Under the pieces are notes generated by a model. The model saw only the letters and a program-made list of their open reading frames with translations, ran no database searches and was not told the origin of the DNA. From positions 930,001-994,000 of the forward strand of contig OY978106.1 in assembly GCA_963854735.1 (NCBI GenBank): a stretch of DNA of 64,000 nucleotides, read 5' to 3'. Within the stretch, counting starts at the first letter, position 1, and every line of letters starts with the position of its first letter. The position numbers and the translations under genes were made by a program. The DNA is from Marvania coccoides (Eukaryota; Chlorophyta; Trebouxiophyceae; Chlorellales; Chlorellaceae). This document shows positions 10,990 through 11,221 of the stretch, piece by piece.

Positions 10990-11107
10990 CAAAATAATTT
11001 TTCTTAAGTGCGACGGATTAACCACTCTCCCATGGCAGCCTTTGCATGCATCGAGTACTGCCAGTGCGGTTCGAACGCACGACCCCGAAGGGATCGCAAT
11101 ATTTAAG
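10990..11107 (-). tRNA. circularly permuted tRNA-Leu (anticodon UAA)
   Basis: On the minus strand the 3' half precedes the 5' half. The 3' half (11098-11056) holds anticodon-stem strand TGCGA, a class II variable arm CCC-TTCG-GGG, T-arm GTGCG-TTCGAAC-CGCAC, acceptor TGGCAGT and discriminator A. After a 16-base spacer (11055-11040) comes the 5' half (11039-11002): acceptor GCTGCCA, TG, D-arm GGA...TCC with AGTGGTTAA, anticodon stem TCGCA and loop CTTAAGA. Joined head to tail, all four stems close (one G-U at the first acceptor pair) and the long variable arm fits tRNA-Leu. A CTTAA in the leader (11107-11103) can pair with TTAAG of the loop, as a splicing bulge-helix-bulge element would need. 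A T4 stretch (10994-10991) follows. CCA is not encoded. Confidence 0.88.
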
Positions 11108-11221
11108 TGAAGGAGAAAAAATCAGCAGAAAATGAATTTCCGTGCCGCCGGTTTTATACGCCCCCCGGCCCCCTGCTTGGAACCGAAAAAATCCCAAATT
11201 CCCAATCAGCGGAGTTTGTTA

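Follow-up and report, generated by a model that had tools for sequence, protein, structure and literature searches.

The 64-kb stretch of DNA analysed here (the window), which is part of contig C10, carries a nuclear tRNA-Leu(UAA) gene whose two halves stand in reversed order, and we infer with high confidence that it is a working, expressed, circularly permuted and apparently single-copy gene. The initial annotation had presented a permuted leucine tRNA as a rarity; this genome, however, has at least 20 permuted nuclear tRNA genes, of which it is one. In at least four of the others (Trp, elongator Met, Val-CAC and Leu-CAA), the permuted gene probably contains a true spliceosomal intron, judging from its splice signals, in which case the spliceosome and the tRNA-splicing endonuclease would share RNA polymerase III transcripts as substrates, and these would need intron excision, circularisation and re-linearisation.

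Anatomy of the permuted tRNA-Leu(UAA) gene

On the minus strand, the 3′ half lies before the 5′ half, as first described; the order stands, while the boundaries originally set at 11098 and 11002 are ambiguous by one base and are placed here at 11099-11056 and 11039-11003 (Table 1). Base 38 is A11002 according to the initial annotation or T11099 by the usual 37/38 rule, and the junction is of the 37/38 type (type II) with that ambiguity. The 16-base spacer was recovered by both reading and script. Swapping the halves gives the full class II cloverleaf that had been claimed, with 7/7 acceptor and 5/5 anticodon pairs (12/12), an acceptor stem GCTGCCA/TGGCAGT, an anticodon stem TCGCA/TGCGA closing a loop of CTTAAG and one further base, a variable hairpin CCC-TTCG-GGG and a T-arm GTGCG-TTCGAAC-CGCAC. 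The pairing proposed between the leader CTTAA and the loop TTAAG is also present, and a circularly permuted Leu(UAA) gene with a bulge-helix-bulge-like junction at 37/38 is still the best reading of the locus.

No TTTT occurs within the gene body, and one follows it downstream; a run of four or more T is also found within 25 nt upstream of the gene, and a run of six T lies between the gene and the upstream TATAAAA. The fold of the RNA was no better than that of shuffled sequences (z -0.28). Normal-order ARAGORN and Rfam searches of the window gave no tRNA at this locus, as expected because the gene is permuted.

Two features were observed in the flanks. On the upstream side, an ankyrin-like open frame, so named by eye (11521-11222, minus strand), stops about 120 nt before the tRNA gene. 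Downstream, a stretch of about 104 nt (10977-10874, minus strand) shares 80% identity with the DNA that follows the permuted Ser-AGA gene (L039) and resembles, over shorter stretches, the downstream DNA of a Lys and of the Pro-UGG gene; it may be a repeat that inserts next to tRNA genes.

Table 1. Elements of the permuted tRNA-Leu(UAA) locus, in window positions
Element	Position	Strand	Basis
3′ half, tRNA positions 38-73, discriminator A at 11056	11056..11099	-	direct reading, script, rotated model
Intervening spacer, 16 nt, separating the acceptor strands; CCA not encoded	11040..11055	-	reading, script
5′ half, tRNA positions 1-37	11003..11039	-	reading, script, rotated model, motif search
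Leader CTTAA, complementary to TTAAG (tRNA positions 33-37, 11007-11003); central helix of a putative bulge-helix-bulge	11103..11107	-	pairing computed, cut sites inferred
TTTT, 8 nt past the 5′ half; likely Pol III terminator	10991..10994	-	script
TATAAAA, about 59 nt upstream of the 3′ half; possible promoter element (weak)	11152..11158	-	reading

Permuted and colinear tRNA genes across the genome

The assembly comprises 22.46 Mb in 15 contigs, of which 13 are large and nuclear. The remaining two, C14 (49 kb) and C15 (100 kb), have tRNA sets of organelle type, and we read them from their gene content as mitochondrion and plastid, respectively; C15 bears rbcL, whose best solved relatives we take to be green-algal. 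The contig ends examined (the starts of C1 and C5 and the end of C10) consist of (TTTAGGG)n, a telomere found in Chlorella and Coccomyxa and called likely ancestral in green algae in the part of PMC12633428 consulted. Together, rbcL and the telomere point to a green alga as host.

A genome-wide Rfam tRNA search, in which 63 of 454 candidates were scored, gave at least 61 matches, of which nine were nuclear and none was a Leu tRNA. Since nine nuclear tRNAs are too few, the genome was searched with ungapped D-arm and T-arm motifs that are neutral to gene order, combined with reading of the flanks. Motif matches prove little by themselves: reversed-pattern controls gave similar counts in places (motif/control by search: 17/11, 26/14, 38/9, 33/40, 21/7, 19/1, 12/14 and 7/10 for these motifs, and 2/4 for the Leu(UAA) 5′-half motif described below). 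The motifs yielded 19 permuted and 12 colinear genes, among the latter five intron-bearing genes that the Rfam search had missed; with the window gene and two colinear genes from the Rfam search (Gln-CUG and Gly-UCC), the nuclear genes identified amount to at least 20 permuted, with 20 anticodons, versus at least 14 colinear ones. These are minimum counts, as 32 nuclear matches with three mismatches (13, 9, 6 and 4 by search) were left out.

The permuted genes are Leu-UAA, Leu-CAA, Leu-CAG, Phe-GAA, Tyr-GUA, Thr-CGU, Thr-UGU, Asn-GUU, Ile-AAU, Arg-UCG, Arg-CCG, Arg-CCU, Arg-UCU, Ala-CGC, Ala-UGC, Met-CAU (elongator), Trp-CCA, Val-CAC, Ser-AGA and Ser-GCU. Those in normal order are Val-UAC, Gln-CUG, Met-CAU (initiator-like), Gly-UCC, Glu-UUC, Cys-GCA, Asp-GUC, Lys-CUU, Thr-AGU, Ser-UGA, Ser-CGA, Arg-ACG, Pro-UGG and Pro-AGG. 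The initiator and elongator labels of the Met genes are judgements from sequence, and the anticodons of Ser-UGA, Ser-CGA, Arg-ACG and the two Pro genes were read by eye, ARAGORN naming two loci (L029 and L031) otherwise. Roughly twelve anticodons that would be expected (His, Gln-UUG, Lys-UUU, Gly-GCC, Ala-AGC, Val-AAC and others) did not turn up in these searches; their genes may be broken by further introns or may simply have been missed. All 20 permuted genes have their junction read at 37/38, their spacers range from 6 to 111 nt, and none of them (0/20) encodes CCA.

Partial copies were also observed. The permuted Ala-CGC gene (L072, C6:847109-847262) has a second copy of its 5′ half 61 nt further on, with its own T-run, and the permuted Leu-CAG gene (L027) has a truncated tandem copy 107 nt on. 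An Ala-UGC copy with a damaged 3′ half (C5:861739) is oriented oppositely to the intact gene, at a distance of about 4.4 kb, and orphan or damaged halves include a Thr-like 5′ half (L071), a copy of the Thr-AGU 5′ half (L074) and a copy of a Lys 3′ part (L083). These last three, together with C5:861739, L075, L076, L078 and L096, were read and kept outside the counts. Two further candidates, L030 (C9:405999) and the C3:83661 match of L051, were dropped as D-arm-like sequences without a partner half.

Pairing of the halves, and single copy or remnant

The permutation was evaluated with a covariance model of the rotated cloverleaf, trained on 27 further tRNAs from the same genome (five nuclear, the rest organellar) with random spacers, the window gene being excluded. 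On the 64-kb window, Leu-UAA was its only match at E <= 10, with 34.2 bits and E = 1.9e-9. Over 66 sources, 16 of the 18 permuted genes included scored 30.6-64.9 bits, 11 of them 55.2-64.9; of the other two, Arg-UCU reached 16.9 bits and Ser-AGA gave no match. Six organelle stretches consisting of ordinary tRNA halves or adjacent tRNA genes, however, also reach 30.3-44.6 bits with this model, and since the window gene falls within that range, the score alone proves no permutation.

The proof of permutation in Leu-UAA rests on stem pairing rather than on the model score. True partner halves form 12/12 acceptor and anticodon pairs in 19 of the 20 permuted genes and 11/12 in Asn. When halves were swapped among the 20 genes, only one of 380 mismatched combinations reached 11/12 pairs or more, versus 20/20 true partners, and a chance arrangement of the Leu-UAA halves is thereby ruled out. 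ARAGORN called all 20 rearranged genes with the expected anticodon (introns removed in four) and none of the 20 unrearranged ones; it is supporting evidence only, because it also accepts 45 of the 380 mismatched combinations, and in some 3-kb loci (L037, L053) its intron-spanning calls were placed elsewhere.

The locus could instead be the dead remnant of a tandem tRNA duplication that mimics permutation, with an ordinary Leu(UAA) gene doing the work. Halves of the kind such a history would leave do exist here (the second Leu-CAG copy, the extra Ala-CGC 5′ half, the orphan Thr-like 5′ half and the truncated Lys copy). Nevertheless, every stem of Leu-UAA is intact, and its terminator and junction layout are common to the 19 other permuted genes. 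An ordinary gene elsewhere, the test by which the initial annotation would have been overturned, was not found in the nuclear genome by the Rfam search (63 of 454 candidates scored), none of whose nine nuclear matches is a Leu tRNA, or by the motif search. The Leu(UAA) 5′-half motif, allowing up to three mismatches over the 22.5-Mb genome, matched exactly only at the window locus; the other match is a Ser gene with three mismatches. This search gave two matches versus four with its reversed-pattern control, and a gene interrupted inside the motif would escape it. The dead-remnant explanation is thus highly improbable in our view, and the Leu-UAA gene of the window appears to be single-copy, no ordinary nuclear counterpart having been seen in these searches.

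Transcription signals and the junction helix

The placement of T-runs across the 20 permuted genes fits transcription by RNA polymerase III, as far as sequence can indicate. TTTT occurs inside the gene body in one gene, versus 8.2 expected from window DNA (P ~4e-4); Thr-UGU has TTTT in its spacer. Within 30 nt downstream, TTTT is found in 19/20 genes versus a background of 13.6%; Met differs, with its T-run at 34 nt. Against a simple picture of this kind, seven of the 20 genes, including Leu-UAA, have a run of four or more T within 25 nt upstream of the 3′ half, which a transcript starting further upstream would meet. A general TATA box is not supported by the upstream sequences, TATAW being present in 3 of the 14 permuted genes examined. 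In 10 of the 20 genes, a run of four or more T after the 5′ half is directly followed by GC (as in TTTTTGC).

The helix between leader and anticodon loop had a mean of 7.85 with a gene's own leader versus 5.07 with the leaders of other genes, and one of 2000 shuffles was as high. Such stronger pairing with the own leader is what a bulge-helix-bulge needs; by the rule used, 4 of the 20 junctions have no 4-bp central helix.

mRNA-type introns in four permuted genes

Four permuted genes form no tRNA until an intron is removed, after which each has 12/12 acceptor and anticodon pairs. These introns lie in the D-loop of Leu-CAA (81 nt) and Val-CAC (88 nt), in the anticodon stem of elongator Met-CAU at 28/29 (99 nt) and in the T-loop of Trp-CCA at 57/58 (89 nt). 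All four start with GTAAGA or GTGAGT and end with CAG, fitting GTRAG...YAG, and three of them have CTAAC or TTAAC 30-40 nt before the intron end, Trp having no YTRAY match.

Three introns read by eye in protein genes of the window have similar splice signals. One belongs to a gene that we presume to be UFSP2-like (GTGCGT...GGCAG, plus a second GTAAGA site) and two to a presumably phosphatase-like gene (GTGAGT...TGCAG and GTGAGC...TGCAG), both names being given by resemblance. TTTT is present in two of these three introns versus none of the four in tRNA genes.

Introns of this type are not expected in tRNA genes, and two other explanations were weighed. The first is that they belong to the bulge-helix-bulge type known from Cyanidioschyzon and have ends that read GT...AG by accident. 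Such introns do occur outside 37/38 in Cyanidioschyzon, some of them inside permuted genes, according to the parts of PMC3978253 and PMC9602550 consulted, and the boundaries of the four introns, which allow one register or a few, were not chosen blind. For this reason, five registers were allowed in estimating the accident: a random window segment fits GTRAG...YAG in any of five with a frequency of 2.2e-4, that is, ~2e-4 for each intron, and the pattern is nevertheless found in 4/4, with CTAAC or TTAAC at the stated distance in three. In addition, none of the eight introns near 37/38 of colinear genes fits GTRAG...YAG in the register used; a tentative pairing test around the four introns showed no clean bulge-helix-bulge pairing. 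We therefore regard accidental GT...AG ends as unlikely.

According to the second explanation, the four genes are copies that intron insertion has made nonfunctional; other tRNA genes in this genome do have damaged copies. Against it, no other gene for Trp(CCA), elongator Met(CAU), Val(CAC) or Leu(CAA) was found, no second intact copy of their arms being present in the motif searches able to list one, and removal of the intron restores all 12 pairs in each. Broken copies seem very unlikely, and spliceosomal introns in working permuted genes are the reading that we retain as probable.

A proposed route to the mature tRNA

Gene anatomy suggests the following route, in all its processing steps as in the expression of Leu-UAA itself. 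RNA polymerase III would transcribe leader, 3′ half, spacer, 5′ half and trailer, and stop at the T-run. In the four sister genes, the spliceosome would most likely remove the GT-AG intron from the D-loop, anticodon stem or T-loop. The tRNA splicing endonuclease would then cut the bulge-helix-bulge at 37/38 and a ligase would close both halves into a circle, from which RNase P and tRNase Z would cut out the spacer, CCA being added afterwards.

Comparison with known permuted tRNA genes

Taken alone, the Leu-UAA gene adds one member to a type already published. Type II (37/38) permuted Leu(UAA) genes of Ostreococcus lucimarinus and Micromonas pusilla (Maruyama et al. 2010) are tabled in the part of PMC3978253 consulted. 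They share with the present gene the isoacceptor, the junction type and the absence of an intron, and their spacers are of similar length (25 and 20 nt versus 16 here); the prasinophyte genomes have 3-6 permuted genes each, versus at least 20 here. A permuted gene accompanied by an additional 5′ half, as seen with Ala-CGC, is also described for the tRNA-Cys of O. lucimarinus.

The largest published permuted set that we found is that of Cyanidioschyzon merolae, with 11 permuted genes among 43 tRNA genes (PMC3978253, in part). Both genomes are rich in permuted genes, some of which have an additional intron at another place in the tRNA. In the same text, however, the extra introns of Cyanidioschyzon are described as bulge-helix-bulge introns, whereas those here have GT-AG, mRNA-type signals, and its Leu(UAA) gene is of type I (20/21) with a 37/38 intron, in contrast to the 37/38 junction of all 20 genes here.

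The list of lineages first given for permuted tRNA genes is outdated, as Auxenochlorella also has them (PMC12633428/PMC12636532, consulted in part). According to these sources, Auxenochlorella UTEX 250 is likewise a green alga, with a nuclear genome of ~22 Mb and an incomplete tRNAscan-SE set supplemented by permuted genes; its telomere is TTAGGG, versus TTTAGGG here. In chlorarachniophyte nucleomorphs, two have two permuted tRNA-Ser genes each and two others have none (PMC4494063, in part).

With regard to the introns, the closest likeness is the U6 snRNA of fission yeast, whose gene is transcribed by RNA polymerase III and contains an mRNA-type intron (PMC10484740, in part); U6, however, belongs to the spliceosome itself, whereas the hosts here are permuted tRNA genes. 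No report of spliceosomal introns in tRNA genes was found in the titles and abstract openings of a mainly open-access literature.

Implications

Should the four GT-AG introns prove spliceosomal, tRNA genes would join U6 as RNA polymerase III genes with mRNA-type introns, and tools limited to introns at 37/38 would miss such genes elsewhere. Where tandem or partial copies stand next to permuted genes (Leu-CAG, Ala-CGC), they may capture stages in the origin or multiplication of such genes. Finally, 20 of the 34 nuclear tRNA genes identified (both lower bounds), more than half, are permuted, a share above the 11/43 given for Cyanidioschyzon in the portion of PMC3978253 consulted, and with this many permuted genes the cost, benefit and origin of permutation become testable in one organism.
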